64,000 bases of DNA. Origin: Buxus sempervirens (Eukaryota; Streptophyta; Magnoliopsida; Buxales; Buxaceae). Of the stretch, positions 2,491 to 49,142 are shown one piece after another. The translations under genes and the position numbers were made by a program. Positions within the stretch are counted from its first letter, which is position 1; every line of letters begins with the position of its first letter. The notes under the pieces are model-generated. The model had not been told where the DNA came from. It was given only the letters and a program-made list of their open reading frames with translations, and did not search any database. The DNA lies in NCBI GenBank assembly GCA_947561395.2, contig OX387187.1:34329829-34393828 (forward strand). Direction: 5' to 3'.

Positions 2491-2590
2491 TGTAGACACC
2501 CTCAAATTGCACAGTAAAAATGATGAATAATTGGCAAAAATCATTCTTTCCTTTGAGACTAGCACAAAATTTGAGAAATAGGCATTTTTT

Positions 2591-2738: not shown

Positions 2739-2900
2739 CCTTTTGCTCAAAATTAGGGTTTTTCGAGAGTTTTCACTTTTTACCATCATATCCTTCATTA
2801 AAGGAATGGAAATCTCGGAAATGGCCTTAGGGTTAAGGTTGGTGGGCTCTAGACATTATTTTGTGTCTACCGTCATGCAAACCCTAACCCTAGCCTTTGC

Positions 2901-2909
2901 CTATAAATA
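2901..2909 (+). promoter_or_regulatory. TATA box of the 5' LTR
   Basis: CTATAAATAG in a GC-richer setting. It is conserved in place in the other family A LTRs (minus 1274-1282, + 23762, minus 26147, + 45122, + 63321). Transcription of the genomic RNA would start about 30 bp downstream. Confidence 0.75.
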
Positions 2910-4964
2910 GGAGGCTCCTCCTTAAGCAAATGGCCAATAAGTTGGAGATTGAAGAGCTCCGAGTGAAGAAGAGAACCACTGCTGCACTGCTTCCAGAACC
3001 CAGGTAAGCCTAAACCCCTTTTTATTTTTCTGTCTTTACATTCTAGAGTTAGTTCTTTTCTTCTACCCTTCTGTAGAATAAGGCCTATTCTGTGTATATG
3101 CAAATCCTTCCTCTACTCAAAGTACCTCAAAACTCCCTCTAGCCGTAAAACACGAAGGCGGGATCTAGGGGAAACGAGACTGAGGATTGATCCTTAGTGC
3201 TAGAACCTTGTTGAATAGCCCTTTGATTCTATGAAAACCGTTTCATATTTAAAATACCCCAAGATTATTTCGAAGAACCGTTAAACGAGAGAGAGAACTA
3301 AGGGAAACGAGAATGGAAGGGAACCCTAGGTTGTTTTAGAACCCCATTTGATTGATATGAATGTATGCTATATGTCGTTATGTTATTGAAGAAATGATTT
3401 TTACACATACACACATAGCACTTGCTTTTGTCGGAATCGGCTTATATTTTGGATTTATTGCATTCATTGTGATAGATCTGGAATAAATAGCCCCAAAAAA
3501 TTCTGGGATATTTCTTAATGGTTTTCAACATGATTTCAAACAAGTATTGAAGACCTCTAGGTCTAACCTCTCGGTTTCGGGCATTTTGGCTCAATTCTGG
3601 GGTTTTTTGGCATATTCTTTCCAATCGGAGGGAATGGTGTGCCAAGCTTGTGCCCTATTTTTTCCTAGAGGTTCTTAAACTTTGTTTAAATGATTTTGAT
3701 TCATGTTGCACAGATCACACACACCTTATCACTGTTTTGAGTTGATTTTCTTTAAAAAGGCTGAAACTGGACAGCAACTGTGCCCCCAACTTCGGACACT
3801 TGTAACTTCATCGTCCGGATGAATTTTGGAGTGATTCTAGAGCCATGGGAAAGGTGAGGCTGTCTAGTTTATATCTGTAAAATTTCATTAATTTTTATCA
3901 AGTGGATTTTTTACACCTCTCAGTCGAAGTTGATAGGTCAGTTCAAGTCTGATTGTAGAACTTGTCACTTCAACTGAGCGCCATGTGTTTGTTTTAAGTT
4001 CGATTCGAGTGATTCTTGTTTCTGAGTTTTCCTTTGGAAGTCTAATTTCAAACCTAGTGGTTTCATAATTTTTTGACTCCATTTGTATCATTGGTATCAG
4101 ATTTACTCAGAACTGTTCAACAGAACTTTTCTGGGTAAATCTGTGATCTTCGGGGCCTGTTCGTGAGGTCACCCAAGGCACATCCGAATGAATTTTTGTA
4201 TGAGGCTAGTTTCATTTGAAATATGGCCATACATACTTCATTCACACCAAATTTCATGGATTTATATGGAGCCGATTTTTCTAAATGATTTTCCAAACTT
4301 GTCCACTTGTCACTTTTAACTATCTCCAGCAGCATATTTCAAAGGAGAATAACTCCTAGGATTTTAACCAGAATTAATTGAAAATTTGCATGAGTCTTCG
4401 ATTTATCATAATTTTTCAAATGGATTTGGGTGGATTCAATTTAAATTAGATTGGAATGATTTCAAGACAAATGGTTCTTGCTTTTACCGAATTTTCCAGA
4501 TTTGACTCAACTTGGTTTTGTGCAATTTTTGCTTTGATTTCCATCTATTGGTGATATTTCAGATGTAATATTGACATAAAAGAGGATCTGGAATTTATTT
4601 GGACTTCTCATGTGAAGGTATCACACATTTGTTTAATCATTTCTCAAGGTTTTTGATTATTTTAGCAAGCTTTATCATTTTTTTAGCATGAACAACACTT
4701 GGCAACCACCTTGTGTGGGTGAATGGGGGTTCCTAACACCTTCCCCCGTTCATAATCTAATCCCCTTACCCATCTCTGGATTTGATTTTCAAGTAGAGTT
4801 ATTTTCACTCTAGTATTTGCCTTTTAGCTCTTTTTGCTCATTTTGAATCTTTTGGTGTCCATTCACACCCCAAAAAAATTGAATGGTGGCGACTCTCCCG
4901 TTTTCGTTGAGCCCGTGTGACGATGGAGGGGGATCATCCCGGTGATTTTTCCATGTCTCACAAC

Positions 4965-4983
4965 TGGCGACTCTGCTGGGGAC
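4965..4983 (+). promoter_or_regulatory. primer-binding site (tRNA-Arg type)
   Basis: TGGCGACTCTGCTGGGGAC, two bases after the LTR end. It begins with TGG, the complement of tRNA CCA. From memory of the family, this sequence pairs with a plant tRNA-Arg 3' end, as in Ogre/Tat elements. Comparison with a tRNA set would settle the tRNA identity. Confidence 0.8.
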
Positions 4984-5234
4984 TTGTCGATTTAAGTAGT
5001 ATTTTGTGTTTTTTCATGTTTTATTCTAATCTTGAAAGCTTGCTGTTTTGCCTATTTTATTTGTGCATATTGTTGTATTTCAAATCTGATTAGGATGCTT
5101 TGAAATTTACATGGATAAAGGCATGTATGTATTGCTTGATGTTGTCTAGAAATTTATCTAGAAGAAACCTATCTTGAAATATTATTTTGATGCATTTTGT
5201 GATAACATGCTCTAATTTGAGTTTTTATGCCATG

Positions 5235-7298: not shown

Positions 7299-8020
7299 AG
7301 CAAATATTCCAAGAAACATTTGGTTGGTTCTTTTTTCCAATCAAATCAAAACATTTGTGGGACACTTGGAAGCCCTAGAATATTCCAAGAAACCTTTGGT
7401 TGGTTATTTTTTCCAATCAAATCAAAATCTTGTGGGACATTTGGAAGCCCCAGAATATTCCAAAAAAAAAACCTTTGTTTAATCACGAGAACCAATCAAC
7501 TCAAAATTTGTTGGACATTTGGAAGCCCCAGAATATTCCAAAAAAAACCTTTGTTTGGTCACGAGAACCAATCAAATAAAAAATCTTGTGGGATATTTGG
7601 AAGCCCCAGAATATTCCAAAAAAAAAAACCTTTGTTTGGTCACGAGAATCAATCAAATCAAAAATCTTGTGGGACATTTGGAAGCCCTAGAATATTCCCA
7701 AAAAAAAAAAAACCTTTGTTTGGTCACGAGAACCAATCAACTCAAAATCTTGTGGGACATTTGGAAGCCCCAGAATATTCGAAAAAAAAAAACCTTTGTT
7801 TGGTCACGAGAATCAATCAAATCAAAAATCTTGTAGGACATTTGGAAGCCCTAGAATATTCCAAAAAAAAAAAACCTTTGTTTGGTCACGAGAACCAATC
7901 AACTCAAAATTTGATGGACACTTGGAAGCCCTAGAATATTCCAAGAAAACTTTGTTTGGTCACGATAACCAATCAAATCAAAATCTTGTGGGACCTTTGG
8001 AAGCCCTAAAATATTCCAAC
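7299..8020 (+). repeat. minisatellite of about 79 bp upstream of gag
   Basis: About nine to ten units. The landmark GGAAGCCC (AGCC) falls at 7371, 7446, 7524, 7602, 7683, 7766, 7847, 7927 and 8002, spacing 75-83 bp. Each unit has GGAAGCCCYAGAATATTCC, an A-run of variable length, CCTTTGTTTGGTCACGAGA and ATCAATCAAATCAAAATCTT. Most length change is in the A-run. An open frame crosses much of it (7320-7934), but the units fall in shifting frames. Confidence 0.85.
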
Positions 8021-8126
8021 AACAAAAAAAATAAAAAACAAAAAAAATATGAAAAAAAAACAAATAAATCCAGACTTGTGTTCACCTAACTCACTTATCT
8101 ACATTAATAGGTGTGACTAGGATTAA

Positions 8127-9860
8127 ATGGGAGCTGACACGTTTCTTTGTGTTTTACTTACCCAGGTACACTTACTTACAATCATTGCTCCCGTAACCAG
8201 ATCGAAAGCCCGCACCATGAATACTGAAGAAAATCAAGCTCAAGCCACCGTACCTGCTCAGGACTTTGCTCAGATGCAAGAGCAAGTGGCCGGATTGGCC
8301 AAAATGCTAGGAGACCTACTGGCGGCTCAGGCCCAAAACCAAGCCTCAACTTCTAATCAAGCACCACCACCTCAAGCCTACGTTCCACCTCCAGCTCAAC
8401 CCATACCTGAGCCCATTTCTGAACCTGTCCCTGAACCAATCCTGATTAGAGAAAATACTATGGAGTATGAGAAAGAGATGGAGAAGGAAAAAGCAATGGA
8501 GGAGATGGAAAGGAAACTCCTGCATAAAATAGAGAGGATTCAGGAAGAACTTAAAGAGGTGAAGGGGGAAACAACTACAGAAGTACCACCTTCGATGACT
8601 TATGCATATACCCGGATGCATGCCTACTGGCCAAGTTCAAGTGCCCAGACTTCGACAGATATGATGGCATGGGTTGCCCAATGATCCATTTGAAATTATA
8701 CTGTGGGGCTTTGTGCCAATTTGGCCGAGATGACGGCATACTGATCCAACTCTTTCAGAGGAGTTTGACAGGGTCAGCTCTAAGGTGGTTTGCCACTGTG
8801 AACCATGGCAGGATCAGAAGATGGAAGGATTTGGCCAACGCCTTCTTGGATTAGTATAAATTTAACTCGGAGATCGTGCCAGACCGGTACGATATGATGA
8901 GAATGAGCAAGGGAAAAGAGGAGTCTGTAAGGCAGTATGCCAAGAGGTGGAGAGAGGCCACCTTCCAGGTTAGGCCGCCGATGTTGGAGCCTGAGATGAT
9001 CTCAACTTTTGTAAGCACACTGGGCCAGCCCTTCTATAATCATCTGGTGGGTCAGATTACCACCAATTTTGCAGCCCTGGTGCAGGTGGCAGACCGGATC
9101 GAGGAAGGGGTTAAGTCAGGAAAACTTATTGACTACTCTACTTTGACCGGGCAATCTGATTCATCCGCTTTCCTAGCACAGAAGAAGGGGACTGGGTTTA
9201 AGAAAAATGGGGCCAGAAAAGAAGGGGAAGTGAACCTGGTACAAGCTCCTCCTTCCAAGAAACCGCTCCATGTCAACATCTTTGCACCTCAACAAGCCCA
9301 GCAGGCCCAGCAGTTGTACTAGACCCCTCTCAATGTCAATTTCTCCCCCTCTGTGCCTGAGAATCAGAGGAGGGCTTTCACTAAGGAAGAGAAGGATGCC
9401 TGGATGGCAGCAAGGAGGAGCAGAGTTTTTACTCCCCTTCCCGCGTCTCTCTCCCAACTATTACTGACCCTACTGAAAGGAGAGTATGTGACCCCTGAAG
9501 GAGCCCAACCCAAATTCCTCAAAAGGGAGGAATTTTGATCCAGTAGTCACTTATGACTATCACATGGGTGCACCGGGGCACTCTACTGACACTTGTTGGA
9601 TGCTGAAGCATGCGGTCCAGGATTTGCTGGATCAGAAGGCCCTGGTTTTTAATACTGCTACACCCGCCCCGTCGGGAAATGATATCGGGCAAAACCCTCT
9701 ACCTTGCAACAATGGGGCAGGCCCGTCCAACTCCATCACTGCCATATCTACCAGGAGAAGGGCCTATGACCCATCTCAACTTATAGCACCCGTGGGGACC
9801 TCGGTCAAGGTCCATTTCTTCCAAGAGAAAGAAGAAGAGGAGGTCAATATTATCTCCTAG
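8127..9860 (+). pseudogene. gag (capsid/nucleocapsid), decayed
   Basis: Gag would form the virus-like particle that packages the RNA. The N-terminal part (8127-8684) has a Pro/Gln-rich stretch and a Glu/Lys-rich coiled coil. The retrotransposon gag domain (about 8670-9100) has GSALRWFATV, YKFNSEIVPDRYD and RQYAKRWREAT. A zinc-knuckle-like part (about 9555-9620) reads YDYHMGAPGHSTDTCW, the form used in Tat-type gag, with Tyr at the first Cys position. Breaks: a frameshift near 8670, a stop TAG at 8852, a stop TAG at 9320, a frameshift near 9530 and a stop TAG at 9858. The start is set at the first Met in frame with the N-terminal part; a later Met near 8217 is also possible. Not functional. 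Confidence 0.85.
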
Positions 9861-10565
9861 AAAAATGATCATACTGCTGAGGATATTAGCTCCTCCTTGA
9901 ACCGGGTCTCCTCCCTCATGGCCCAGATAAACATTACAAGGCCTCATTTGGTCTTCAATTGCAGTCCACCCACCTGTTCTCTAGCCAAGACATCAAAAGC
10001 TCCACTGGTCATCAACCTTGACCCCACCACTGCATCCATCTCCTCTTCTATTCCATCAGCCACATCCGGAGCCAAGCTCCAAATCTTGGTTGTAAACGTT
10101 CCTTCATCCTATAACGTCCTTAAACCGGCCCATACATCCCGGTCCAAACTCCAGCCGTTGGTGGTTAATGTCCCTAAACTGGCCTATTCTGAGGCAGTTG
10201 TACCATGGAATTACAGCGAGGGGATCACGGCTATGGTGCCAGTAGTCAGGAACCAGAACCAGGAGGAGATGAACCTCATGATGAGGTCGGGGAAATGTGT
10301 GGAAGGAGTAGAGATAGAAAAAGAGACAAAGGTGGAGAAAGAGAAAAAAGAAACAGAAGAAAAAAGAAAATTGAAAGGAAAAACAAAAGTGGGAGAAGAC
10401 ACCCCCCAGGGTGCAGAAAATGAGGCATTAGACCTCATAAAAATAATTAAAAAAAACGAATTCAATCTTATGGATCAGCTAAACAAAGTCCCGGCCCAGA
10501 TTTCAATACTGGGTCTTTTGCTGAATTCTGAAAAGCACAGGGACGCATTGTTAAGGGTGCTATAG
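9861..10565 (+). pseudogene. gag-pro linker region
   Basis: Continues the frame of the last gag part. The first third is Ser/Pro-rich, followed by a strongly charged Lys/Glu stretch (about 10310-10400) and LLNSEKHRDALLRVL just before a TAG at 10563. The LLRVL phrase comes shortly before the protease in Tat-type polyproteins. The frame continues across the TAG into the protease, so this was one reading frame. No catalytic function is seen. Confidence 0.65.
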
Positions 10566-11531
10566 AGTGCACATGTATCCCAGACTATCGATCCGGACCA
10601 ACTAGGCAAAATGGTTGGTCAAATCTTATCACACAACGTGATAAGTTTCTCCGAACGTGAGATAAGTCCAGGTGGGTGTTATCATGTTGACCCTTTGCAC
10701 ATCACAGTGCTCTGTAAGGGCAGCATGATCGCACGGGTTTTAATTGACAATGGGTCAGCATTAAATGTCTGCCCATTAATCACTTTTGTCAAACTTGGTC
10801 TGGATCAGTCTAAGATCAAACAAAATGGGAGGATAGTGAGGGCTTTTGATAGCTCTAAGACACACTCCCTAGGGGAGATTGAACTGCCGATCACAATTGG
10901 ACCGAATATTTTCAACATCACATTTGAAATGATGGATATTCCAGTAGCCTTCAATCTGCTCCTAGGAAGGCCGTGGATACATTCGACTAGGGCAATACCA
11001 TCCACGCTCCACCAAAGGGTGAAATACATAAAAGGGCAAATGGTGATAACTGTCCTAGCTGAGAACTTGGTGCCTCACATTGTGTCACTTGATGTACCCT
11101 TGATAAATGTGGATTTAACTGTCGACAAGATTGCGTTCCACTCATTTCAATTTGAAACGGTCAATTTCATACCTGTGGGGTGTGAGAAAAAAGAAGAGAA
11201 AGGGACTACTGCAGAGAAGATGGTAAGGAAAGTGATGGAAAAATACCACTTTCACCCGGGGAAAGGCCTAGGAATAAATTTGCAGGGAATTGTGGAGCCA
11301 ATCAGGGCCAAGAAGCTGATCCCTAAAGTAGGGTTGGAATTTAAACCCGGAGGATGGAGAAGGATGAAGCACGAAGAAGGAAAGAAAAGAAGTAAAGGAA
11401 AATTCCCCCACTTAAGGGAAAATTTTCCTAAACCCTCATATATAATCCAACTGTTTTCTCCTATGGACCAATCCAAACCTCCCTACCGCAACATCAACTC
11501 ATTCCAAAAGCCTTTTATTTCGGCTCTGTAA
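10566..11531 (+). pseudogene. aspartic protease with G-patch
   Basis: The retroelement protease, which cuts the polyprotein. The active-site phrase is VLIDNGSALNVCP (about 10735-10775), where most proteases have DSG or DTG; DNGSAL is the usual form in this lineage. NLLLGRPWIH (about 10955) is the conserved second motif of the fold. Towards the end, FHPGKGLGINLQGI (about 11250-11290) with flanking glycines is a G-patch, a nucleic-acid-binding motif found after the protease in several retroelements. The frame is open from about 10566 to a stop at 11529. Confidence 0.85.
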
Positions 11532-12216
11532 CCATACAACCCATCTCCTACACTTGAAACAGTGGGTGGGCCTGGGCCATAGCCAAAGCAGCAGGCGGAC
11601 TTCTCCGAAGAGGTTGGGGCTTTCTTCGCCATGACTGAGGGCGATAAGACAGAAGTGGACATGGACCTGCCTTTCATTGATTGGGCGGCAGTAAAAATTC
11701 CAGATGAGGTCATATCTGGACTGGGCCCCGTAGCAGAAAAGGGCAATACCCACCCGATGATGATGGCATCGGATTCTGGGTTTGAGGAGCAGGCTTGCAC
11801 AATTTCCCCTGCTCCCAAAAATTGTGTATTAAACAATTGGGAGGAAACTACCCTTACCTTTGAAGCAGCGTTTGTTTGGCAAACTGACGTGGCTTCCAAA
11901 AAAAAAAACTCCAATAGTGGAATGCCATTTCCCTGAAGGTCCTAATGAGCCTTTGTCTTCAGGGGAATTATGTTTAGAAGGCTCACAAAAAACCCAAAAA
12001 GATTTTTCTATTTTTTATAGAAAATTTAATTTTTTCAAAAAGGTCCAAACCACTTATGAACCATATAAACGAACCGAATTGGACAAGGTTGAATATGACT
12101 TCGACCTTGAGCTCGACTTTGACCTCATGGGGATCGAAGAAGAGACCGAGGTCAAAGAAGAAGACGTTCCAAAAGAAATTGAATATCAATTAGAACATCA
12201 TGAAAAGAGGGTCTAA
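11532..12216 (+). pseudogene. protease-RT spacer
   Basis: Low-conservation linker between protease and RT. It carries on the protease frame to about 11900, where a run of ten A (11899-11908) marks a shift to the RT frame. The second half is very acidic (ELDKVEYDFDLELDFDL, then a Glu/Lys run). A TAA at 12214 interrupts the frame just before RT. No domain recognised. Confidence 0.55.
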
Positions 12217-13460
12217 CCTAATATTGAGGAGACCATTTCAATAAATCTTGGGACCAAAGATGACCCAAAAATAGTGAAAATCGGGGCATGCCTATCTGAT
12301 GTGCAGCGTGGTGAAATGACACGGTTCTTGGCAGATTATAAGGATTTGTTCGCTTGGTCGTATCGGGACATGCCGGGGTTGGACATTGACATAGTGGGGC
12401 ATAAGTTGCCAATTTTGCTAGGGGTTAAGCCAATTAAGCAGAAGCTGAGAAGATTGAAACCTGAATGGACCTTGAAGGTCAAGGACGAAGTGGTCAAACA
12501 ATTTCAAGCAGGATTTTTAGCAGTCTGCACGTACCCCGAGTGGCTCGTAAACATAGTGCTGGTACCAAAGAAGGACAGGAAAGTCAGAATGTGTGTGGAC
12601 TACAGGGATCTGAACAAGGCAAACCCAAAAGATTATTTTCTGCTCCCACACATCGACATCTTGGTAGACAACACTGCTGTACATAGCCTGTTCTCATTTA
12701 TGGACGGCTTCTTAGGGTACAATCAGATCAAGATGGCTAAAGAAGATCAAGAGAAAATAGCGTTCATCACACCTTGGGGCACCTTCCATTATACTGTCAT
12801 ACCATTTGGGCTTAAGAACGTTGGGGCAACCTATCAGCGGGCCATGACAGCACTATTCCATGACATGATCCATAAGGAGATGGAGGTCTATGTGGACGAT
12901 ATGATTGTCAAATCATGCAAATAAGAGGACCACTTGATCAATCTGAAGAAAGTGTTTAATCGACTCAGGAAGTACAGTTTACGGCTTAACCCGGCTAAAT
13001 GCGTCTTTGGGGCCACATCAGGGAAGTTATTGGGGTTCATTATAAGCAGAAAAGGGATTGAAATTGACCCTACTAAAGCAAAGGCAATTATTGAAATGCC
13101 ATCACCCAGAACAGAGAAGGAGGTTCGTGGTTTTTTTGGAAGGATTCAATACATAAGCCGGTTCATAGCACAGCTCATTGCTATCTGTGAACCTATTTTC
13201 AAGCTTCTGAGAAAGGATAACCCGACGGTTTGGAATGATGATTGCCAACAGGCCTTTGACAAAATTAAGAAGTATTTACTGAATCCACCTGTGCTAGTGC
13301 CACCGACTCCAGGAAGACCACTAATTCTGTACTTGTCAGTGTTGGAAACATCGATGGGATGTGTCTTAGGGCAGCATGATGAGACTGGTAGAAAAGAAAG
13401 GGCAATTTACTATCTGAGTAAAAAATTCATAGAATATGAAGCCAAGTACTTACCGTTGTG
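12217..13460 (+). pseudogene. reverse transcriptase and first RNase H
   Basis: Copies element RNA to DNA. RT motifs in order: LVPKKDRKVRMCVDYRDLN (about 12560-12615), FSFMDGFLGYNQIKM, FITPWGTFHYTVIPFGLKN and the catalytic YVDDMIVKS (about 12888-12915). A TAA follows at 12922-12924, right after the catalytic motif and in the same frame as the downstream thumb (LRLNPAKCVFG, GKLLGFIISRKGIE). The first RNase H (about 13290-13450) has LILYLSVLETSMGCVLGQHD, a form without the usual Asp pair, as is normal for Tat elements, where this domain is degenerate. A small deletion near 13455 shifts the frame. Confidence 0.9.
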
Positions 13461-14150
13461 CTCTAGTGTGGGCAACTCAGAGGCTAAGTCATTACTTCCT
13501 TAGTCACTCCACATTATTGATATCCCGGATGGACCCTTTGAAGTATTTGTTTGAGAAACCGGCACTAACTGGCAGAACAACAAAGTGGCAGTTGTTACTT
13601 TCCGAGTTTGACCTCACATATATCACTCAGAAGGCGATTAAGGGTCAAGCCATTGTTGATCACCTGGCTGCGCATCCTTTGCTAGAATACCAACAGTTGA
13701 AGACTAACTTTCCCGATGAGGCAATTTTGTTTACTGAGGAAGAGGAAAGTGAAAGCTCTTGGCAGAAGTTCTTCAATGGGGCCGCCAACATGAATGGAAA
13801 TGGAATATGGGCAGTCTTGGTCAAACCAGATGGTTCACACATCCCAATCGCAATGAAGCTGAGATTCCAGTGCACCAATAATATTGTAGAGTATGAAGCA
13901 TGCATAATTGGGTTGCAAGCCGCCATGGACCATGAAGTGGAGGAACTTGACGTATACGGAGATTCGAGTCTTATCATCTTCCAAACGACTGGTGAATGGA
14001 AAACCAAGGATCACAAACTGATCCCCTATCACGAGTATTTGGAAGAAATAAGCACAAATTTTACTCGAATTCCCTTCAACTATATGCCAAGGGCCAAGAA
14101 TCAGTTCGCGGATGCTCTAGCAACGTTGGCTTCAATGCTCAACACGCCAG
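13461..14150 (+). pseudogene. second (archaeal-type) RNase H
   Basis: Continues pol after a frameshift. WQLLLSEFDLTY precedes an archaeal-type RNase H from about 13755. Its motifs are KFFNGAANMNG, NNIVEYEACI, VYGDSSLIIFQ and RAKNQFADALATLAS. The first catalytic Asp (the D of the FDGA phrase in active relatives) is Asn here, while the Glu and the second Asp remain. This extra domain defines the Tat lineage. Loss of the first Asp would be expected to abolish activity. Confidence 0.85.
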
Positions 14151-15490
14151 AAGGGGTAGACATCAAACCACTGGAAATTGAGGTCAGAGATGAGCCGGTT
14201 TATTGTCTCGTTCTAGAGGGAGCACCTGAAGAGGAAACACCGTGGTTTCAAGATATCAAAAATTTCTTGAATGATCGAAGTTTGCCAGAAAATGCCAATT
14301 CTAATGAGAAAAGGACAATACAGAGATTAGCTGGTCAATTCCTACTAAGTGGGGGACATTTGTACAAGAGATCACATAATGACATTCTGCTCAAATGTGT
14401 TGTTAAGGTTGAGTCAGAAAGGTTGATTGAGACTGTACATAAAGGAGTTTGTAGACCCCATATGAACGGACACATGCTTGCAAAGAAGATTCTGAGGTTG
14501 GGATACTATTGGACAACGATGGAGCACGATTGCTGTATATATGTCAAGAGGTGTCATCAATGTCAGATATATGCGGATAATAAGCATGCACCCCCAAGTG
14601 AGCCGCATAACATGACCTCACCATGACCCTTCTCTATGTGGGGCATAGATGTCATTGGCATGATTTCCCCTAAGGTGTCGAATGGGCATAGATTTATCCT
14701 GGTGGCAATCGACTATTTCACCAAGTGGGTAGAGGCGGCCTTATATGCAAATATTACAAGCAACCATGTTATTAAATTTTTGAAGCACAATATTATTTGT
14801 TGCTATGGACTGCCAAGTGCCATAGTATCAGACAATGCTTCAAATATTAAAAGCAAGGACATGAAGAAGATATGTGAGCAGTTTCAGATCACCCACCACA
14901 AGTCAGCTCCATACAGGCCAAAGATGAATGGGGTAATAGAAGCAGCAAACAAAAACATAAAGAAAATCATTCAGAAAATGGTAGTGAGTTACAAGGATTG
15001 GTATGAAATGCTACCACTTGCTCTACATGCCTACAGAACCTCAATCTGGACTTCAACTGGGGCAACCCTGTATTCCCTAGTCTATGGGATGGAAGCAGTT
15101 TGGCCAGTGGAAGTAGAAATCCCATCACTTAGAGTGCTCATGGAAGCTAAATTAGAAGAAGCTGAATGGATACAGTCAAGACATGATCAACTCAATCTGA
15201 TAGAAGAAAAGCGTTTGAAGGTGCTTTGTCATGGCCAATTGTACTAGAAGAGAATGGCCCGAGCCTACAATAAGAAGGTGAAGCCCAGAACTTTCCAGGA
15301 ATGGAATTTGGTTCTAAAGAAAATTCTACCATTTTTGGAAGACCATCATGGTAAATTCAAGCCAAATTAGGAAGGGCCTTTTGTTGTCAAGAAGGTCCTG
15401 TCAGGGGGTGCATCATCTTAACAGAAATGGATGGGACAGATTTTCCTGAGCCAATTAACTCTGATGCAGTAAGAAGGTATTTTCCTTGAT
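14151..15490 (+). pseudogene. integrase, decayed
   Basis: Integrase inserts the cDNA into the chromosome. The zinc-binding part has the two His (TVHKGVCRPHMNGHM) and two Cys (RCHQCQIY) at about 14435-14570. A TGA at 14624 then interrupts the frame. The core holds all three acidic residues: D in WGIDVIG, D in IVSDNASNI (about 14828) and E in NGVIEAANKN (about 14940). Stops follow at 15245 (QLY then KRMARAY), about 15367 and further on, so the C-terminal domain is broken. No chromodomain is seen, as expected for Tat. Confidence 0.88.
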
Positions 15491-16525: not shown

Positions 16526-18183
16526 CTAGGCTCTGTCCCTTAGTCGCTCCTCAAGCTCCCGAATCCGAGCTGCCTGAGCTGCGATAACCCCAGAAGCCCC
16601 CTCTGCAGCGGGATCACTCAAGAAGGAAATGACCTCATCTGAAAGAGTCTGTTTAATCCTCATGCCTCTAAGGTTGGCTAAAGCATCCTGGTGCTTCTGC
16701 CGTAGCACTCGGACTTCAAAGCGGCGAGCCTGCCTCTGCTCCTCAAGTTGCTTTTCCATAGCAAGACGGCGGGACCCCTGCTCTTTAGGTTGCCTCTCCA
16801 AATCAAGGCCTCGTATCCTAAGTTCTTGGGCCTCTCGTACCCATATTTGCTGAAGTCGCTTGTGAGAGGCTCTCTCAGTCTCCAGGAGGTCCTCATAAGT
16901 GGGATCCAAAACTGCAATAGGATCCTCAGGTACTGGGGCCTGAATCTGAATCTACTCCTTGATCCAAAAGAGGTAGTCCTTCACATGGGACTCTGAGAAG
17001 ACTGGACTCCGCATGAAACGAATATAGGACCACTCCCTCGTCAACCAAGCATTCAGCTTCATGGTGGTTGGTGAAAGTGGCCCCAGATGATCCTCGTATC
17101 CACTTGGGATTATAATCCCCTGGATCGCTCTGAACTGCCTAAGAACCCGCAAGGGGAGATAAAGCATAGCACGACTCAAGCCAGCCAGAACCAAAAAGTT
17201 CCTGTCTCTGAAACTGATCACTGTCTCCGCATTGGGTTGATAAGTGCCAGGCCACCTCACTTGATCGTCCTGAAAGTAGCCAAAAAAGCAAACCAACCCT
17301 ATCTGCCTCCTAGCCGGTTGCTCATCAAGATTGGAACCTTCAAGCTTGGAAAGAAGTGTCGATTGATCTCCTCAATTTGACTCAAGTGGTCAAGTAACCA
17401 GAGCTGCAGAAGAGGAGTGATATTTCAATGTATTGTGAAAAAAAAAACGAAAAGAAAAGAGAGAGGAATTTTACCTGCAGGATAGGGGCACATGACAGGA
17501 AGCACTTTCTTCTTCCTGTAATAACAATTTGTCAAAGCCTGGTACATCCCTGCCAAAATCATAGGGGCCAATCTCTCCCGCTCCCTAACCTGGCATATAA
17601 CTGGGATAAGGGCCAAGTCGACTTCATCATCATCCCACAGAAAACGTAGTTGGTTGACCACTATTAGGGTCAGGGCATTGAACCTATCTTCCTTATTTTC
17701 CCCCTTCAAGAGCCTCTCAATCAAAAAAGACTTGGATAAAGTCAAAAGGGTGTCAGAATCCCCCAAATCCTTTTTCCCTATGCCCAGAAAAGTAGAAGCC
17801 TCTTTCTTATAGCTAGGCTTAGGGGATGGGGTCACTACCTTCTCTGCAAACCTCAAGCTCAGGATGGTTTCAACCTCCTCAATGGTTGGAGTCATCTCAT
17901 TGTCTCCAAAACGAAAAAGGTTCAACTCAGAAACCCAATGCCCAACCATGGCATCAATAATTTCCCACTTGAACGGGATGGAAGGGATGAGCAAGGTGTG
18001 GCCTAGATGAATAGAATCCCACCTAATCTCTTCATCAATGGTCATAGAGTTGACCCACCTAGTGTAGAAGGAATCTACAGGGTTGTACTTAGTGAGATTA
18101 GGGGGTTTTGCTCTAAAATGTTGTTTTGCAGGGGAGACTACGTGGACAGACAATATTGGGGCAGAAGATGATCCAAAATCCAT
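16526..18183 (-). pseudogene. antisense DUF7745-like (plant-mobile-domain-related) gene
   Basis: Runs against the retrotransposon. Exon 1 (18183-17475) starts with Met 108 nt below a TATA box; an in-frame Met at 18288 lies only 3 nt from the TATA box and is unlikely. Residues after the start include WVNSMTIDEEIRWDSI, FRFGDNEMTPTIEEVETIL and LLKGENKEDRFNALTLIV. These resemble the PTVEEY region of DUF7745 proteins, a group related to the plant mobile domain. A donor CAG/GTAAAA lies at 17474 and an acceptor CTGCAG at 17404; the phase does not fit exactly, so an indel is likely. The second part (17296-16526) has LPLRVLRQF and a long charged coiled coil ending IRELEERLRDRA. A frameshift lies near 17300 and a TAG near 16952. 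The function of such genes in retrotransposons is unknown. Confidence 0.7.
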
Positions 18184-18290
18184 TGGAGATGATGGGAGCG
18201 TGCTAAGAATCAATGGGAGGAGGAAAAAGGAGAAAAAGGGGTTTTCTAAACTCAAAAACTCGTCAAAATGACTCAAATCCCGAGGCAATT

Positions 18291-18500
18291 GATTTTATAG
18301 TATGTTTTAATGTATCCGACATATCAGGTCGGATACAAAAGGCTTTATTCTTATCTGACGAGAAATGTCAGATACAAAAGAAACTGTTTGTATCCGACAT
18401 ATCATGTTGGATACAAAAAGAGTTTAATGTATTCGATCTAATATATCGGATACATAGAAAAAAGGCAACAAAAAAAAAAACAGAGAGAAAAGGGAGAAAA
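18291..18500 (-). promoter_or_regulatory. promoter module of the antisense DUF7745-like gene
   Basis: Read on the minus strand: a purine/A-rich stretch (18500-18457 on the + strand), four dyads (about 18427-18455, 18388-18416, 18351-18376, 18309-18337) of the TATCCGAC...GTCGGATA type, then a TATA box CTATAAAATC (18291-18300). The first ATG of the gene is 108 nt further. The order matches the module at 22748-22952 and points to a common origin of the two promoters. Confidence 0.7.
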
Positions 18501-22952: not shown

Positions 22953-23340
22953 GTGCTACAAAGTCTGCTATTTTCACAAAAAAACCCTATTTTGGCTTAA
23001 AATCCACTTCACAGCCACGAGAGCTCAGGGGAATTTAGGACAACTTGGGGAAATGTGTTGGCCAAAAGGAAAATATTCATTCAATTTTTAATTTGGTTTG
23101 ATAAAAAAATCAGTTTTCAAAAAAATCTTATTTTGGGCTTAAAATCCACTTCATAGCCACGAGAGCTCAGTGGAATTTAAGATATCTTAGAGAGATGCCC
23201 CCCTTAAAGTTAGGCCTTTTTGGTAAATCTTCACCCAAAAATTATTTTGCAAAATTGAATTGAACCAAGCAAATCATGGTTAAGGGAGTGCAATTTGGGC
23301 TTGTCTAATCTTTGCAGCTCATTGCTTTGCAACTCTCGCA
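22953..23340. other. region before the polypurine tract
   Basis: Contains two diverged copies of a phrase with TTAAAATCCACTTCA.AGCCACGAGAGCTCAG (near 22998 and 23138). A related copy lies in reverse at about 1890-1930 in the older element. No gene seen. Confidence 0.5.
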
Positions 23341-23352
23341 AAGAGGGGCAGT
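23341..23352 (+). promoter_or_regulatory. polypurine tract
   Basis: AAGAGGGGCAGT immediately before the 3' LTR. It is the site where plus-strand DNA synthesis starts and it defines the U3 end. The older element has the same tract on the minus strand at 1714-1727. Confidence 0.85.
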
Positions 23353-25048
23353 TGTAGACACCCCCAAATTGCACAGTAAAAATGATGAAAAATTGGCAAA
23401 AATCATTTTTTCCTTTGAAACCAGCACAAATTTTGAGAAATAGGCACTTTTTCTTGTATCCGACAACTCAGGTCGGATACAAGCATATTCTTTCATATCT
23501 GACAGAAGTTGTTGGATATAAGCAGATGTTAATGTATCCAACGACATATGTCGGATACATATATGTGCTCTTGTATCCGACCTGATATGTCCGATACAAG
23601 CTTTTTGCTCAAAATTAGGGTTTTTCGAGAGTTTTCACTTTTTACCATCATATCCTTCATTAAAGGAGTGGAAATCTCGAAAATAGCCTTAGGGTTAAGA
23701 TTGGTGGGCTCTAGACATTATTTTGTGTCTACCATCATGCGAATCCTAACCCTAGCCTTAGCCTATAAATAGGAGGCTCCTCCTTAAGCAAATGGCCAAT
23801 AAGTTTGAGATTGAAGAGCTCCAAGTGAAGAAGGAAACCGCTGCCGCACTGCTTCCAGAACCCAGGTAAGCCTAAACCCCTCTTTATTTTTCTGTCTTTA
23901 CATTCTAGAGTTAGTTCTTTTCTTCTACCCTTTTGTAGAATAAGGCCTATTCTGTGTGTATGCAAACCCTTCCTCTACTCAAAGTACCTCAAGACTCCCC
24001 CTAGCCGTAAAACATGAAGGCGGGATCTAGGGGAAACGAGACTGAGGATTGATCCTTAGTGCTAGAACCTTGTTGAATAGCCCTTTGATTCTATGGAAAC
24101 CGTTTCATATTCAAAGTACTCCAAGATTATCTCAAAGAACCGTTAAACGGGGAGAGAGAACTAAGGGAAACGAGAATGGAACGGAACCCTAGGTTGTTTT
24201 AGAACCCCATTTGATTGATATGAATGCATGCTATATGTCGTTATGTTATTGAAGAAATGATTTTTACACATACACACATAGCACTTGCTTTTGTCGGAAT
24301 CGGCTTATATTTCGGATTTATTGCATTCATTGTGATAGATCTGGAATAAATAGCCCCTAACAATTCTGGGATATTTCTTAATGGTTTTCAACATGATTTC
24401 AAACAAGTATTGAAGACCTCTAGGTCTAACCTCTCGGTTTCGGGCATTTTGGCTCAATTCTAGGGTTTTTTGGCATATTCTTTCCAATAAGAGGGAATGG
24501 TGAGCCAAGCTTGTGCCCTATTTCTTCCTAGAGGTTCTTCAACTTTGTTTAAATGATTTTGATTCATGTTGCACGGATCACACATACCTTATCACTGTTT
24601 TGAGTTGATTTTCTTTAAAAATGCTGAAACTGGACTGCAGCTGTGCCCCCTACTTCGGACACTCGTAACTTCATCGTCCGGATGAATTTTGGAGTGATTT
24701 CAGAGCCATGGGAAAGGTGAGGCTATCTAGTTTATACTTGTAAAATTTCATTAATTTTTATCAAGTGGATTTTTGACACCTCTCAGTTGAAGTTGATAGG
24801 TCAGTTCAAGTCTGATTGTAGAACCTGTCACTTCAACTGAGCACCATGTGTTCGTTTTAAGTCCGATTCAAGTGATTCTTGTTTTTGAGTTTTCCTTTGG
24901 AAGTCTAATTTCAAACCCAGTTGGTTTCATAATTTTTTGACTCCATTTGTGTCATTGGTATCAGATTTACTCAGAACTATTCAAGAGCACTTTTCTGGGT
25001 AAATCTGTGATCTTCGGGGCCTGTTCGTGAGGTCACCCAAGGCACATC
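23353..25048 (+). repeat. 3' LTR, truncated
   Basis: Matches the 5' LTR from its first base (TGTAGACACCCC) for about 1.7 kb, to the position equivalent to about 4185. It includes the dyads, the TATA box (23762) and the conserved block near 24002. The last 0.8 kb of the LTR, including the U5 end, is missing. At 25049-25053 (CGAAT) it joins an inverted LTR copy. Confidence 0.93.
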
Positions 25049-26564
25049 CGAATCGAACTTAAAACGAACACATGGCGCTCAGTCAAAGTGACAGGTTCCG
25101 CAATCTGGCCTGAATTGACCTATCAACTTCGACTGAGATGTGTCAAAAATCCACTTGATAAAAATTAATGAAATTTTACAAGTATAAACTAGACAGCCTC
25201 ACCTTTCCCATGGCTCTGAAATCACTCCAAAATTCATCCGGACGATGAAGTCACGAGTGTCCGAAGTTGGGGGCACAGCTGCAGTCCAGTTTCAGCATTT
25301 TTAAAGAAAATCAACTCAAAACAGTGATAAGGTGTGTGTGATCCGTGCAACATGAATCAAAATCATTTAAACAAAGTTGAAGAACCTCTAGGAAGAAATA
25401 AGGCACAAGCTTGGCTCACCATTCCCTCTTATTGGAAAGAATATGCCAAAAAACCCCAGAATTGAGCCAAAATGCCCGAAACCGAGAGGTTAGACCTAGA
25501 GGTTTTCAATACTTGTTTGAAATCATGTTGAAAACCATTAAGAAATATCCCAGAATTGTTTGGGGCTATTTATTCCAAATCTATCACAATGAATGCAATA
25601 AATCTGAAATATAATCCGATTCGACAAAAGCAAGTGCTATGTGTGTATGTGTAAAAATCATTTCTTCAATAATGTAACGACATATAGCATGCATTCATAT
25701 CAATCAAATGGGGTTCTAAAACAACCTAGGGTTCCCTTCCATTCTCGTTTCCCTTATTTCTCTCTCCCCGTTTAACGGTTCTTTGAGATAATCTTGGAGT
25801 ACTTTGAATATGAAACGGTTTCCATAGAATCAAAGGGCTATTCAACAAGGTTCTAGCACTAAGGATCAATCCTCAGTCTTGTTTCCCCTAGATCCCGCCT
25901 TCATGTTTTACGGCTAGGGGAAGTCTTGAGGTACTTTGAGTAGAGGAAGGATTTGCATACACACAGAATAGGCCTTATTCTACAGAAGGGTAGAAGAAAA
26001 GAACTAACTCTAGAATGTAAATACAGAAAAATAAAGAGGGATTTAGGCTTACCTGGGTTCTGGAAGTAGTGCGGCAGTGGTTCCCTTCTTCACTCGGAGC
26101 TCTTCAATCTCCAACTTATTGGCCATTTGCTTAAGGAGGAGCCTCCTATTTATAGGCAAAGGCTAGGGTTAGAGTTTGCATGATGGTAGACAAAAAATAA
26201 TGTCTAGAGCCCACCAACCTTAACCCTAAGGCCATTTCCGAGATTTCCACTCCTTTGATGAAGTATGATGGTAAAAAGTGAAAACTCTCAGAAAACCCTA
26301 ATTTTGAGCAAAAAGCTTGTATCCGACATATCAGGTCGGATACAAGAGCACATATATGTATCCGACATATGTCGTTGGATACATTAACATCTGCTTATAT
26401 CCGACAACTTCTGTCGGATATGAAAGAATATGCTTGTATCCCACCTGAGTTGTCGGATATAAGAAAAAAATGCCTATTTCTCAAATTTTGTGCTGGTTTC
26501 AAAGGAAAGAATGAATTTTGCCAATTATTCATCATTTTTACTGTGCAATTTGGGGGTGTCTACA
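25049..26564 (-). repeat. inverted copy of the first 1.5 kb of the LTR
   Basis: Reverse complement of 23353-24869, ending TGTCTACA at 26564, exactly at the element's right edge and next to the CCGGC duplication. It forms a near-palindrome of about 1.5-kb arms with a loop of about 180 bp (24870-25048). Its readable frame (25411-25614) is closer to the 3' LTR (24305-24508) than to the 5' LTR (3442-3645): three of 67 codons differ in meaning against about five. Near the junction (25060-25130) the arms are more diverged. It carries its own TATA box (minus, 26147-26156). Confidence 0.93.
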
Positions 26565-27572
26565 CCGGCGCCATCGTGGTAACCTTCGGTGGTACTCCAT
26601 CTATGTTTCGGCGGCTTAGGCAACACTCCCTTCACGCTTGCAATCGGTTGCTCATCTCTCCACTGTGCTTGCCAATCAAACAGGATTGGTGAGCAGATAT
26701 GAGACTTTTTTTCTTTTTCTTTTTTGCTGTGTTGAATCTCTCAATACTTGATTGACTGCATATCACGGGTTCCACTTTAGAAATCTTGATTAGATAAAGC
26801 TTGTAGGTTTGGTAATGTCCTCAAATTGACAGTAACTAAGAACATCGAATTGTCTGTCGGTGATGATTTCCAACTGAATTGCTTACTTCAAATTGAATTG
26901 CATGATGTTCAGATTGTACAATTCAAATGCTTCTGATCATTTTAGTATATTTCAAACTGAATTGCCGGTGGTAAAAAAATTTGCTCATTTTCATATTTGA
27001 TCCAAATACCATGCTGTGATCTGTTATTTTTTTTTCTTTTTTTCCGCAATCTGCCTTGACTTTCCAATCCAATTTTAGTATACTTCTGCTCATGGTGGTG
27101 CTTCAACTGCCAGGATCTTTCCATGATTTGCCTTATGGATTCCATGATTAATTCACATACCAATCTTTCCAAGATTGGTATGTGAATCAATCTTGGTAGT
27201 CTTTAAAGTATCCTTACAATTCCTGATTTGTATTCTGAAATTCTTTGAGACTGATTTTATGAAATTCCTGCTTTGATCACCGATCAACTAGGACCTTTTT
27301 ATGCAATATTGATCTTTTCACTTTGCTTTTGAGTTGCATATCTGTTCTACTTTCCTGAGTACATCCGGTAATCCTAAAATCACAACAAATTAAGAGAGAT
27401 TAAGTCGTGTAGAGATCTTCAGGATCAGTGGGAATACTTAGGGGATAAAATAAAAATTCCTGATAAAACAATTAAGCAAAAATTTGTAGTTAAATAGAAA
27501 TATAAAACACTTCCCTGTTACTTGTAGATGGCTAGAGGTCGTTCCCGTGTGCGAGAGGAGGTTGATCCATCG
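26565..27572 (-). mobile_element. older Tat-type element, continuation right of the insertion
   Basis: Starts with the second copy of CCGGC and carries on the sequence of 2490. On the + strand it holds the rest of the PMD-like gene leader, the leader intron (about 26688-27527) and the first codons of that gene (ATG 27528, MARGRSRVREEVDPS), which match the younger copy at 21472. Homology stops abruptly at 27572, so the rest of the older element is lost. Confidence 0.85.
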
Positions 27573-28976: not shown

Positions 28977-29399
28977 TCACAGCAAGCGCCTCCTACTCTG
29001 AACTGTGTTTGTTGCCCACACAGCTGCACCATAGATCACCACGTTGCCGTCCGTCTGAACGATCAAGCGGTAGTTGTTCGGACCACGGGCAGTATTGCTT
29101 GTCCACAAGGTGTTGGTGCCAGAGAGGATGACGAGGTTCCCGTTGTTCAGTAAGGTGACCCTGCAGGATGTGCCTCTGCCATTAGTGCGAGAAGACCATA
29201 GAGCTCTGTTCTGGTTCACATACAACACGAGGTTACAGTCTGCCTGCATTATGAACTTGTAAGGGCCGTTCTCGAGGAACTCGCCGGAGTTCAGGTTCTC
29301 TCCGTTGAAGAGCATGTCTTCGGCCATTGCACCATTAAAGAGCAAGACAGCAACAACAGCCAATCCAATGAATGATACCTTGTTGACAGCCTGCGCCAT
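28977..29399 (-). CDS. GNA-type mannose-binding lectin A1
   Basis: A secreted single-domain lectin of 140 residues. The start is set at MAQAVNKV (29399): it opens a signal peptide (about residues 1-27, ending NGAMA), whereas the longer open frame to 29546 would place a Ser-rich stretch in front and overlap the TATA box. The domain follows the beta-prism II plan with three QxDxNxVxY-type sites. The first (QADCNLVLY) and third (QTDGNVVIY) are complete; the middle one (NNGNLVILS) is degenerate. Two Cys (QADCN, GTSCR) are placed for the family's disulfide. The tail NTVQSRRRLL looks like a short C-terminal propeptide. Single exon, like most of the family. Such lectins bind mannose glycans and often serve in storage or defence; that role is inferred. 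Intact. Confidence 0.9.
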   Translation of the reverse strand: MAQAVNKVSFIGLAVVAVLLFNGAMAEDMLFNGENLNSGEFLENGPYKFIMQADCNLVLYVNQNRALWSSRTNGRGTSCRVTLLNNGNLVILSGTNTLWTSNTARGPNNYRLIVQTDGNVVIYGAAVWATNTVQSRRRLL

Positions 29400-29513
29400 T
29401 ATGGAGCCATATAGTAGTAGATTCAGGCAAGGAAGTGATGAAGAAGAAGATGGTGATGATGACGATAAGGCTGATGAATGAAAGACGAGATGAGATGGGA
29501 GGCGAGTAGATTT

Positions 29514-29521
29514 CTTATATA
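29514..29521 (-). promoter_or_regulatory. TATA box of lectin A1
   Basis: TATATAAG on the minus strand, about 115 bp before the start codon. The same box lies before lectin A2 (53335-53342), lectin B2 (49143-49150) and the displaced promoter of B1 (38017-38024). Confidence 0.7.
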
Positions 29522-29546
29522 GACAAAATAAGGAGGAAAATATCAA

Positions 29547-31630
29547 GATTTATTTCATGATGTTAGACAAAGTCCTTACAAGTTGCTATATACATAGCTG
29601 TGTGATTGACCGTTGAAAGAAGGAGAAGAAAATGTCTTAAATTAGTTTTAAGTGATAATTTTTCAACATAATTGAGATTCAGTTGTACAATTCTTCGTAA
29701 ATGGAAATTAGTGATACTTGAAAAATGTCGCCAAAAGACCTGCAAGCAAATCTTCCTTGTAACTTAAATGATACTGGTTTTCAATTATTTTTAAAAAGTA
29801 ACACTAATTCACAATTACCAAGATTCTTGTGACTGAATCTGAATTATTTGGAAAAATATCACATAAAATAAATTCTCCCATCTTATACAGAAGAAATAAT
29901 AATGATGATAATAAACAAATAATAAAATAATGAGAAGAAATAATAAGAAGCAGAAAAGTCAATGATTTAGTATTAATTTGACCACCACCCAGAGCCAGAG
30001 GACAAGGTGAATCTTAATTCGTTGTCACTTGGGCCGAAAGAATTTTGTTTTGCATTACAAGGACCATCAGAAACACTGCCGGTGGGCCGGCCCGACGTGA
30101 CCCCACTATTCTAGCCGCTTGAGCCTAATCGCTCTCCCATCTTTTAAACTAAAATGTTAAAGGCTTGTGGGTGAGAATCAAACCAGAAATCTGTGCTACT
30201 AAAGCCAACTCTAGTGAATATTTCCCACGAATACTCTCTTCCTTTTCCTTCCAATAAATCCCTCCACAACATATAAAAACTCCAAATAAAATCACAATCC
30301 TAATCCACTTTCTAACTTAAACCACGTACTTTGATGCTGTGCATTTATCACCAATAAATACAATTATTTGCAAACAAAACTACCTAAAGAGGTATATCGA
30401 CGTGCCTCCACTAGTTCATTAAATGGATTCATATTATAACCAACCGGGTGCACGTTGCACGTATGAAGAAAGGGAGGAACAGTTTAGCAATTTATTATTC
30501 TATTTCTTAAAATTGAGAGAATTTTGACTATTGTACCCTTTTGCTAATAAATTTTGACAACAATACGTATGGATATATTGTTTTGGAAACTTGCACATTT
30601 TAGTTGGCGTGATTCCCAAGGAGGCGCCTCACGTTTTATATAGTATAGATAATGGTGTATTATATAACTATATTGTTTCATGTATATATGTTAATTATAT
30701 ACATACTAAATTATATTAAGTATAACAAAAATACATTGTTATTTAAGTAATAACTTCCGTCAAGCTATAACTTATTATATATGCACTTATATATAAGTGT
30801 ATATATATTAATGCTTTAAGTTATTAAGTAACTATGTATATGTTTTGATATATAATAAGACCGAGTATACACACACGTATATATACATGCATGATATACT
30901 TAATAAAAATAAATTGAATAACTGTATTTTAAGTAGATAAGTATACTTTAAGTATATATATACTAAGTATGTGTTAGAACAAATAACATCCCTAAACACT
31001 GGATATCAAAACAAGGCTGATGAAGTAGCTTCGTAACCCGAAATGTGGACTATACAGCCTCTATCTACATTTTTGTTTACAACATTCAAGGAGTGCCGTT
31101 CAATGTGAGTCCTACTCAAAAAATAAAAACTAAAAAAATGGATGAACAATAAGTGAATGGCATCTTATACATGCTGCAAATAACATTGTAGATAGAGGCT
31201 GCACAGTCCCTCATCCGTCTGCAAACACAGTTGGGTTTGGTTTTTCGGATTTTGGATTCGCCATTACCTATTGAGTTTTACTAGTCACCCGTTTTGGTCT
31301 GTGGTCTCTCCAAGTACCAACTAAGTGACTCAGTTATTATATATAATCATTCAAACTGCAAAGCTTTCAAGAAACTAAATTAATATATATCAAAGCATTA
31401 GGGATGTGGGAAACATTCTTCCTGAACAAGAAATTAAACCAACAAACAAGTGACCAAGTACATTTCACATTTTCAATTACTCGCTCTGTTTATTGTACAA
31501 AAAGAGTTCAAGACCTTAAACAAGAGATCCAAGTATGGAGCATTGCTTATTTTCACTCTCAACCTGAAAGACTTTTAAACCAAAACACACAATCCCCATG
31601 AGAAGCAACACATATAGAACATCACATCTT
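29547..31630. other. upstream flank of lectin A1 (duplicated block)
   Basis: No gene seen. It resembles 53343-54945, the upstream flank of lectin A2: shared phrases include CACTGCCGGTGG/CATTGCCGGTGG (30080/53977), GTGCACGTTGCACGTA against GTGCACGTGCAG (30448/54320), and GGATATCAAAACAAGGC against GGATATCGAAACAAGGC (31001/54907). The middle (30650-30960) is AT-rich with TATATA runs. From about 31380 the sequence resembles the 3' flank of lectin B2 (48350 onwards). Confidence 0.65.
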
Positions 31631-31632
31631 AT

Positions 31633-32059
31633 TTAAAACAGTCTTCTCTTGCTTTGCCTCTGAATTGTGTTTGTAGCCCAAAGAGCAGCACCATATATAA
31701 CAACATTTCCATCTTTCTGAACGATCAGACGGTAATTGTTGGGACCGCGGGGGGTGTTACTAGCTCGTCCACATGATGTCGGAGCCGGAAAAGATGACAA
31801 GGTTGCCGTTGTTTTGTAGGGTAACCCTACAAGCCGAGCCTCTGCCGTTGGTGCGAGAAGACCAGAGTGCATGGTTCTGGTTCACTTACAACACAAGGTT
31901 GTAATCTGATTGCATTATAAACTTGTAAGGCCCATTTTCGAAGAATTCGTTTGTGTTCAGGCTCTCGCCATTGAAGAGCATGTCCTCTGCAATTGCACCA
32001 TTGATGAGTAAGACTGATAGGACTACAAGATATGATATGGGGTTGAGTATCTTTGTCAT
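31633..32059 (-). pseudogene. GNA-type lectin B1, broken
   Basis: The copy starts MTKILNPISY at 32059 with a signal peptide like that of B2. The first sugar site has a stop (TAA, about 31888) at the Tyr of the QxDxNxVxY motif. Near 31760, after WTS, a 4-base gain (TAGC-like) shifts the frame and gives immediate stops. The rest (GPNNYRLIVQKDGNVVIYG, then NTIQRQSKRRLF) is readable in another frame. Only 15 bp upstream of its ATG lies the end of a CACTA element, which cuts it off from its promoter (TATA at 38017). Closest to lectin B2 in signal peptide and flanks. Non-functional. Confidence 0.9.
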
Positions 32060-32991
32060 TGAAGTCTCTTAATTCACTACAAAAAAAGTAGGCTTTAGTG
32101 ACGTTTTATAAATGTCACTAATGCTTCACAAAACGTCACTAAAACATCAGTGACGTTTACATTAAACGTCAATGATAATGGCGTCACTAATTGTTTTAGT
32201 GACGCTCTTGTAAAACGTCATTAAATTTTCTAACTATAGTGACATTTATTTAGATTTTAAGTGACGTTTATATATGTCACAAATTCATTTACATAATTAT
32301 TAATAATGATTATTAATTATTTATTAATGACGTTTACCACATAAGTTAGTGACGTTTATTAGAATATTTAATGACATTTATATACATCACAAATGCATTA
32401 TAGTGACACTTAAAAACGTCATTAATGACATTTATATACATTGCCAATTCAATTTAATTGACATTTAGAAAACGTCACTAAACACTTGAAAAAACGTCAT
32501 TAATTTACTATATTTTAATGTCAATTTGATCCAAATTTTGTGACGGTTTAGACATGCCACAAATGCTTCTTTTTTGTTTAAAGCCATTTTATGATTTATG
32601 GTAGTTTTAAAAGTCAGGCTATTTGCTTCAAAATTGGAAATCTTTACGTACATAAATCATATAAATTCAAAATGCCATTTAATCAACATCATCTACATAA
32701 AGAGTTATCAAATAAAAATTACAAGTCTCCATTTCCAAAAAATAATAATAATAATCCATTTACATTAAAAATAGAAATTCCTTCTATATAAGTCACTTCA
32801 TTCCTATAATCCAAACAACGATATACAGTAGAAAGAAAAGCTACATCAGTGAAATAATTAACTAGATGGTCTTCTCGTTGATTAAATTGGAATCCTTGTT
32901 CAATTAAGAAAAAACGAAATCATTAATACCCAAAAAAGAATTTGCAAGAAACAAGGAATCCAGATTGGAAATAATTATATTTCTGTACTGC

Positions 32992-43039: not shown

Positions 43040-43570
43040 CTCATATTTTCTTCATCCGGGCTCCGATCTGGGCAAACTCAGTTGCGTTAGAATTGTCTGG
43101 GAGCCCTCTATCCCATGACCTAGGGGTAGGCCTCTGGATCGGATTTTAGCAGAAAGTCAACCTCTAGCTCCGCTCAATTTTGACCGCCCGCAGAACCTTC
43201 ATCCAGACCACGATTCCTGCAAACTCAGTTGCGTTGGAATCGTGTCGAGATTCTCTATCCAATGATATAAAGCAAGGTATCTGGATCGGATTTTAGCAGA
43301 AAGTCAACTTTTGGCTCCGCCCAAGTTTGACCGCCCGCAGAACCTTCATCTGGACCCCGATTCCTGCAAACTCAGTTGCGTTGGAATCGTGTCGAGATTC
43401 TCTATCCAATGATATAAAGCAAAGTATCTGGATCGGATTTTAGCAGAAAGTCAACTTTTGGCTCCACCCAAGTTTGACCGCCCGCAGAACCTTCATCCGG
43501 ACTCCGATTCCTGCAAACTCAGTTGCGTTGGAACCGTGTCGGGATTTTCTATCCAATGACATAGAGCAAG
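43040..43570 (-). repeat. tandem repeat of 147 bp in LTR-B copy 1
   Basis: The phrase CTATCCAATGA recurs at 43255, 43402 and 43549, spacing 147 bp. A diverged unit lies before it (CTATCCCATGAC near 43108). Confidence 0.75.
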
Positions 43571-43683
43571 GCGGCCAATTTTCACTTGATCAAAAGGTCA
43601 ACTTTTTGTCCCCTCGGGGTTTGACTTTCTACCAGGGTTTTCATTTCCAGCACTTCCAGGGGTGCAAAAATAAGGTGCTTACA

Positions 43684-49029: not shown

Positions 49030-49142
49030 TGCAATCTCTTTGGAGAAGAGAAAAGACAAGAGACCAAGAGAAAGTTAGTAGTACAAGAACAAGGAGAGGT
49101 TAACTGCTGGGTTGATTTGCAAAGGAATGATTCTAAAAGCTT

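Follow-up and report, generated by a model that had tools for sequence, protein, structure and literature searches.

A gypsy-type LTR retrotransposon of Buxus sempervirens was found to represent one insertion that has a U3 terminus at either end and a single 5-bp duplication as made by integrase. The right end of the element is an inverted LTR piece (here called the arm), joined to a truncated 3' LTR via a 5-bp microhomology. We infer that the arm derives from a second sister molecule of slightly different sequence rather than from a 3' LTR strand that folded back on itself. The element occupies positions 2491-26564 of the window, by which we mean the whole 64,000-nt stretch of DNA analysed; the window sits on contig C9 of the 676.5-Mb genome and contains zero N. 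Its LTR length is 2472 bp, and its features in window coordinates are the following:

2486 to 2490, plus strand: left copy of the target-site duplication, CCGGC (direct sequence; empty site in paralogues)
2491 to 4962, plus strand: complete 5' LTR of 2472 bp, TGTAGACACC...ATGTCTCACA, its end set by the 3' LTRs of other copies
4963 to 4984, plus strand: presumed primer-binding site region, ACTGGCGACTCTGCTGGGGA..., placed by its position immediately 3' of the LTR
8127 to 15247, plus strand: broken coding region, its RT, RNase H and integrase domains distributed over separate open pieces (ORF list, Pfam)
17425 to 18294, minus strand: antisense ORF with similarity to DUF7745 / plant mobile domain (Pfam)
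23338 to 23352, plus strand: polypurine stretch GCAAAGAGGGGCAGT, which precedes the 3' LTR (direct sequence)
23353 to 25053, plus strand: 3' LTR, truncated at +1701 of 2472 (95.1% identity to the 5' LTR; alignment)
25049 to 25053, unstranded: CGAAT, the 5-bp microhomology at the fold-back junction, common to both sides
25049 to 26564, minus strand: inverted LTR arm, running from +1517 to +1 and stopping at the U3 terminus (identity, tree, site patterns)
26565 to 26569, plus strand: right copy of the target-site duplication, CCGGC (direct sequence; empty site in paralogues)

The coding region carries the Pfam domains G-patch, RVT_1, RT_RNaseH, RVT_3, Integrase_H2C2 and rve, the last five in the order of Ty3/gypsy elements, and the ORF pieces at 8127 and 8855 matched no Pfam family. 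From the integrase wording, the large size and the antisense ORF, the element may belong to the Tat lineage of Ty3/gypsy. The antisense ORF matched PF24924 (6.9e-10) and PF10536 (9e-07, under the curated cut-off). Several repeats lie within the element. A tandem array of ∼81 bp in 8.8 copies (window 7337-8030) adjoins its first long ORFs upstream, U3 contains a short inverted motif (GTATCCGACA...TGTCGGATAC) repeated at 39-bp spacing (23452-23599 and 26315-26462), and 18306-18454 holds another 39-bp array of this kind.

Elsewhere in the window, a B_lectin-like (mannose-binding lectin) ORF at 28977-29549 on the minus strand scored slightly below the Pfam cut-off. Similar, diverged DNA is present at 31436-32070, 48398-49040 and 52749-53819, and together these look like a local lectin gene cluster. 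Two related tandem arrays of 147-148 bp, at 43050-43571 and 59398-60070, match each other mostly in opposite orientations.

The extent of the LTR was fixed by other members of the family, since the end ...TCTCACA recurs in the 3' LTRs of four other copies (L030-L033), and the element's own 5' LTR likewise finishes with ...TCTCACA at 4962. Because the family LTR is 2472 bp long, the 3' LTR, cut at +1701, has lost 771 bp. The motif TTGGTATCAGA within the 3' LTR (∼24958) was first read as a primer-binding site, so that the right part would have been a 5' leader; this reading was dropped because other copies show the LTR continuing to +2472.

On the left, CCGGC directly abuts TGTAGACACC, and on the right it directly abuts GGTGTCTACA, as claimed in an earlier note on this DNA, which had described two U3 ends against the same CCGGC (2486-2490 and 26565-26569). 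The arm terminates at 26564 with TGTCTACA, so that an inverted U3 terminus takes the place of the usual U3-left/U5-right arrangement. While the polypurine stretch stands before the 3' LTR, the arm is without one and passes directly into CCGGC, ending exactly at the U3 terminus. To examine the target itself, we removed the element, joined the flanks with one CCGGC kept (567 bases) and searched the genome for the empty site. Two paralogues of the host element covered all 567 bases, at 86% (C9:23919944-23920494) and 83% (C9:23919021-23919609), and neither shows a gap or a duplication at the insertion site in these alignments; two further, more distant host-element copies align across the site too. 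The older host element outside is thus continuous, as had been suggested, and with CCGGC on both sides and paralogues continuous through the site we conclude that this is one insertion with a 5-bp duplication of the integrase type, which bears out the suggested use of two U3 termini.

Alignment of 23353-24869 with the reverse complement of 25050-26564 gave 95.9% identity over 1518 columns, and the 5' LTR is 95.1% identical to the 3' LTR and 94.6% identical to the arm. The junction reads CCGAAT followed directly by CGAAC, with no interior sequence between the two LTR pieces, so that the claimed stop of the 3' LTR and its connection through CGAAT to an inverted copy were both recovered. A 26-base pattern spanning the junction (≤3 mismatches) matched the genome once, at the present locus, and a reversed control pattern gave 0 matches.

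The arm was placed in a tree whose 22 rows were the 5' LTR, the 3' LTR, the arm itself and 19 LTR rows from elsewhere, of which two represent the same genomic LTR and some others are 5'/3' pairs of one element. The element's three LTR sequences formed one clade with support 99/95, a result that fits one insertion and opposes an unrelated LTR as the origin of the arm; the tree named in the earlier note as evidence against its own proposal, with the arm nearer an unrelated LTR, was thus not obtained. Within this clade the 3' LTR and the arm were sisters (94/92, slightly below the tool's strong-support mark). Site by site, with the majority of 18 other rows as reference, the substitutions setting each sequence apart numbered 45 for the 5' LTR, 28 for the 3' LTR and 31 for the arm, and the odd one out carried the family majority state at 10, 5 and 7 substitutions, respectively. 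The 3' LTR and the arm share ten non-majority substitutions (one a tie) against the 5' LTR, located from +188 to +1385. Five non-majority states shared by the 5' LTR and the arm are absent from the 3' LTR and conflict with the other groupings; they are perhaps parallel or back changes. Over +1-1439 the nearest relative of the arm is the 3' LTR (49 differences), followed by the 5' LTR (66) and other copies (91 or more, with 99 for copy L022).

The picture is reversed beside the junction. Between +1440 and +1509, 9 positions separate the arm from the 3' LTR, and 1 separates it from L022 (C4:26534600), its nearest copy there. At eight variable positions from +1451 to +1482 the arm reads AGCACGTG, a pattern that many other family members nearly share, whereas the 5' LTR and 3' LTR both read GATTTACA. 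Six of the seven arm-only majority-state substitutions fall at +1456 to +1482, within 27 bp beside the junction, a clustering reproduced by 0 of 200,000 uniform random placements. At +1458, 1460, 1466 and 1467, the TTTA of the 5' and 3' LTRs occurs in 5 of 18 distinct other LTRs and the CACG of the arm in 8, with a further 5 one base off CACG. The arm's excess of distance to the trio over other copies reached 9 in +1440-1509, the top value among 70-bp windows of the three sequences; the same excess in other 70-bp windows was ≤5 for the 5' and 3' LTRs. From these base patterns, which cover ∼70 bp and six to eight sites, we read the first ∼70 bp of the arm as another family haplotype than that of the 3' LTR. 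As the sequences stand today, two family haplotypes adjoin the junction, and their simplest reading would be that the arm piece came from a sister molecule. Later gene conversion from another copy could mimic the arm haplotype, and the changes shared by the 3' LTR and the arm could likewise derive from later conversion between the palindrome arms.

We favor a join between two sister molecules during the copying of two genomic RNAs, followed by integration through two U3 ends, and assign this reading a probability of roughly 50%. One particle would have copied two different genomic RNAs, and plus-strand strong-stop DNA of one RNA would have joined the LTR of the other through CGAAT. Strong-stop DNA is a natural candidate because its 5' end, which would have been set by the polypurine cut, is the U3 terminus, where the arm stops. 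It may have primed minus-strand synthesis at CGAAT on the other RNA, in which case the minus strand would have continued through U3 and the polypurine tract to the interior without flaps or ligation; alternatively, it may have served as a template, with the nascent plus strand jumping onto it. The finished cDNA would have carried U3 at both ends, both of which integrase would have joined at the usual CA. The 5' LTR would have been provided by another strong-stop DNA, and the ten changes shared by the 3' LTR and the arm are expected if it was. The 3' LTR may itself be mosaic, with a switch somewhere from +1385 to +1451 of the kind that the first strand transfer can yield, unless the arm and the 3' LTR are so alike over +1-1385 because the palindrome arms later exchanged sequence. 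The divergence of the 5' LTR from the 3' LTR beyond +1440 (4/76) is not lower than before it (69/1440), with no clear difference between them, and therefore lends no extra support to a mosaic 3' LTR. In its most specific form, strong-stop DNA of one packaged genome would have joined the LTR of its sister, for example by priming in place of the tRNA, and the plant integrase would have accepted the resulting U3-U3 cDNA, making the insertion a fossil of a heterozygous particle; we advance this tentatively, at somewhat short of even odds. A pathway to defective retroviral DNA by aberrant priming was reportedly described by Olsen and Swanstrom in 1985.

The main rival, which accounts for the same facts, is that two cDNAs underwent end joining before they integrated. 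Both cDNAs, finished or partly finished, would have been joined tail to tail by nuclear microhomology end joining, or a larger dimer would later have lost its centre, with the outer U3 ends being integrated. Such a course agrees with the 5-bp microhomology and the 771-bp loss of the LTR end, and with the haplotype, in that a sister molecule is the source of the arm; unusual strand exchange is not required. However, the second molecule must then have been a mere 1.5-kb LTR piece, or have shed its remainder then or later, and we consider end joining possible but rather unlikely. We are more doubtful of the mechanism put forward in the earlier note, in which the nascent plus strand snapped back via CGAAT and then served as its own template up to its 5' end. 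Part of what that proposal contained is supported, namely the insertion by two U3 ends, the arm ending at U3 and the place of the arm in the element's clade; the self-copying strand is not supported. The microhomology exists, the arm stops at the U3 terminus, and the arm and 3' LTR are sisters overall and nearest each other over +1-1439, all of which speak for snapping back. Nevertheless, a self-copied strand would bear the haplotype of the 3' LTR, and the arm does not, differing precisely where copying would have begun (+1451-1482). The pairing site in the 3' LTR, moreover, is now ATTCA rather than ATTCG, which may be a later change. Snapping back is thus strained and needs an extra event, for example that the 5' LTR converted the 3' LTR or that another copy converted the arm.

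Two further explanations appear very improbable. Deletions at microhomology are common in plants, and the same structure could follow from two separate insertions at one 5-bp site, the later of them inverted, and a subsequent deletion through CGAAT. Yet the same five bases would hardly be struck twice, the host is unbroken apart from this element, and in the tree with 19 other rows the arm falls into the clade of the 5' and 3' LTRs (99/95), in a family that has 1479 U3 termini (≤3 mismatches). Least probable of all is an assembly or library fold-back artefact. Palindromes do arise from chimeric reads, but the two arms of this one are 4% apart, which argues against a folded read, the inverted arm has its own haplotype, and the palindrome stops exactly at a U3 terminus with a matching duplication.

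We also looked for comparable right ends in other copies of the family, as the earlier note had suggested. A pattern of the polypurine tract plus U3 matched the genome 1347 times, and 500 bp around the expected LTR end were inspected in 98 of the best 100 matches (95 exact and 5 with one mismatch), a sample that is not random because the list favours copies nearest the pattern. Normal LTR ends were seen in 73 of the 98, no LTR match at the expected end in 15, other LTR matches in 8 and an inverted U3-containing piece in 2. None of these 98 3' LTRs, from the best 100 of 1347 matches, showed an inverted arm ending at U3. Both inverted pieces continue past U3 into an inverted polypurine tract, and the present element is the sole case of this form found. 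Shorter fold-backs could be hidden among the 23 copies with neither a normal end nor an inverted piece.

The two inverted pieces differ from each other in structure. In L077 (C4:49383100-49386600; match at C4:49383217), positions 133-3035 form a palindromic LTR tail with arms 97.5-99% alike, of which the plus arm is internally deleted and the inverted arm is longer, continuing into the inverted polypurine tract. Two stretches searched for its outer ends contained, to the left, further inverted pieces of the family and, to the right, a single short match. In L123 (C9:4148700-4152050; match at C9:4151928), with arms 87% alike, the 3' LTR is cut at ∼+852, where an inverted LTR follows, beginning at the U5 end and continuing into the inverted polypurine tract. 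A different arrangement is seen in L015 (C3:8331000-8337500), where at ∼3255-3276 two family LTRs stand head to head, with an inverted U3 terminus abutting ∼+21 of the plus-strand LTR; this is probably a nested insertion.

The distance between the 5' LTR and the 3' LTR of the element under study is 0.050 (K2P), which at an assumed substitution rate of 1.3e-8 per site per year gives an insertion age of about 1.9 million years.

No plant U3-U3 insertion, and no genomic insertion whose right end is an inverted U3, appeared in the titles and abstract beginnings of the open-access matches listed. The nearest parallels come from other systems. In HIV-1, 26 of 88 proviruses are described as having unequal LTRs, mostly an intact 5' LTR and a damaged 3' LTR as in the present element, and strong-stop DNA from a sister genome was proposed to complete the other molecule, much as in the reading we favor (PMC9278108). 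These proviruses differ in carrying 3' LTR deletions; inversions are mentioned for a few of them in the available portion of that report, with an inverted U3 right end not among these. Complex LTR retrotransposon insertions in the Triticeae, attributed to template switching, resemble ours in combining an aberrant structure with a single target-site duplication and hence a pre-integration origin, but the elements in the accessible part of that account carry an additional LTR internally, as a third one separating two core sequences, and no inverted end (Sabot and Schulman 2007, PMC1950507). For Rous sarcoma virus integrase, concerted integration with U3-type ends is, according to an extract of the source, a standard in vitro assay (PMC10209032); the donor there is of the U3 type only, but the assay concerns a retrovirus and uses oligonucleotide ends in vitro rather than a genomic insertion.

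The insertion described here is evidence from nature that two U3 ends can serve to insert an LTR retrotransposon of a plant and still give a normal 5-bp duplication. The mosaic arms of the element suggest that one particle copied two different genomes. It also supplies a signature that can be searched for, consisting of an inverted U3 right end, a truncated 3' LTR and one duplication. To our knowledge, standard LTR finders expect direct LTRs, and such insertions would be overlooked by them.
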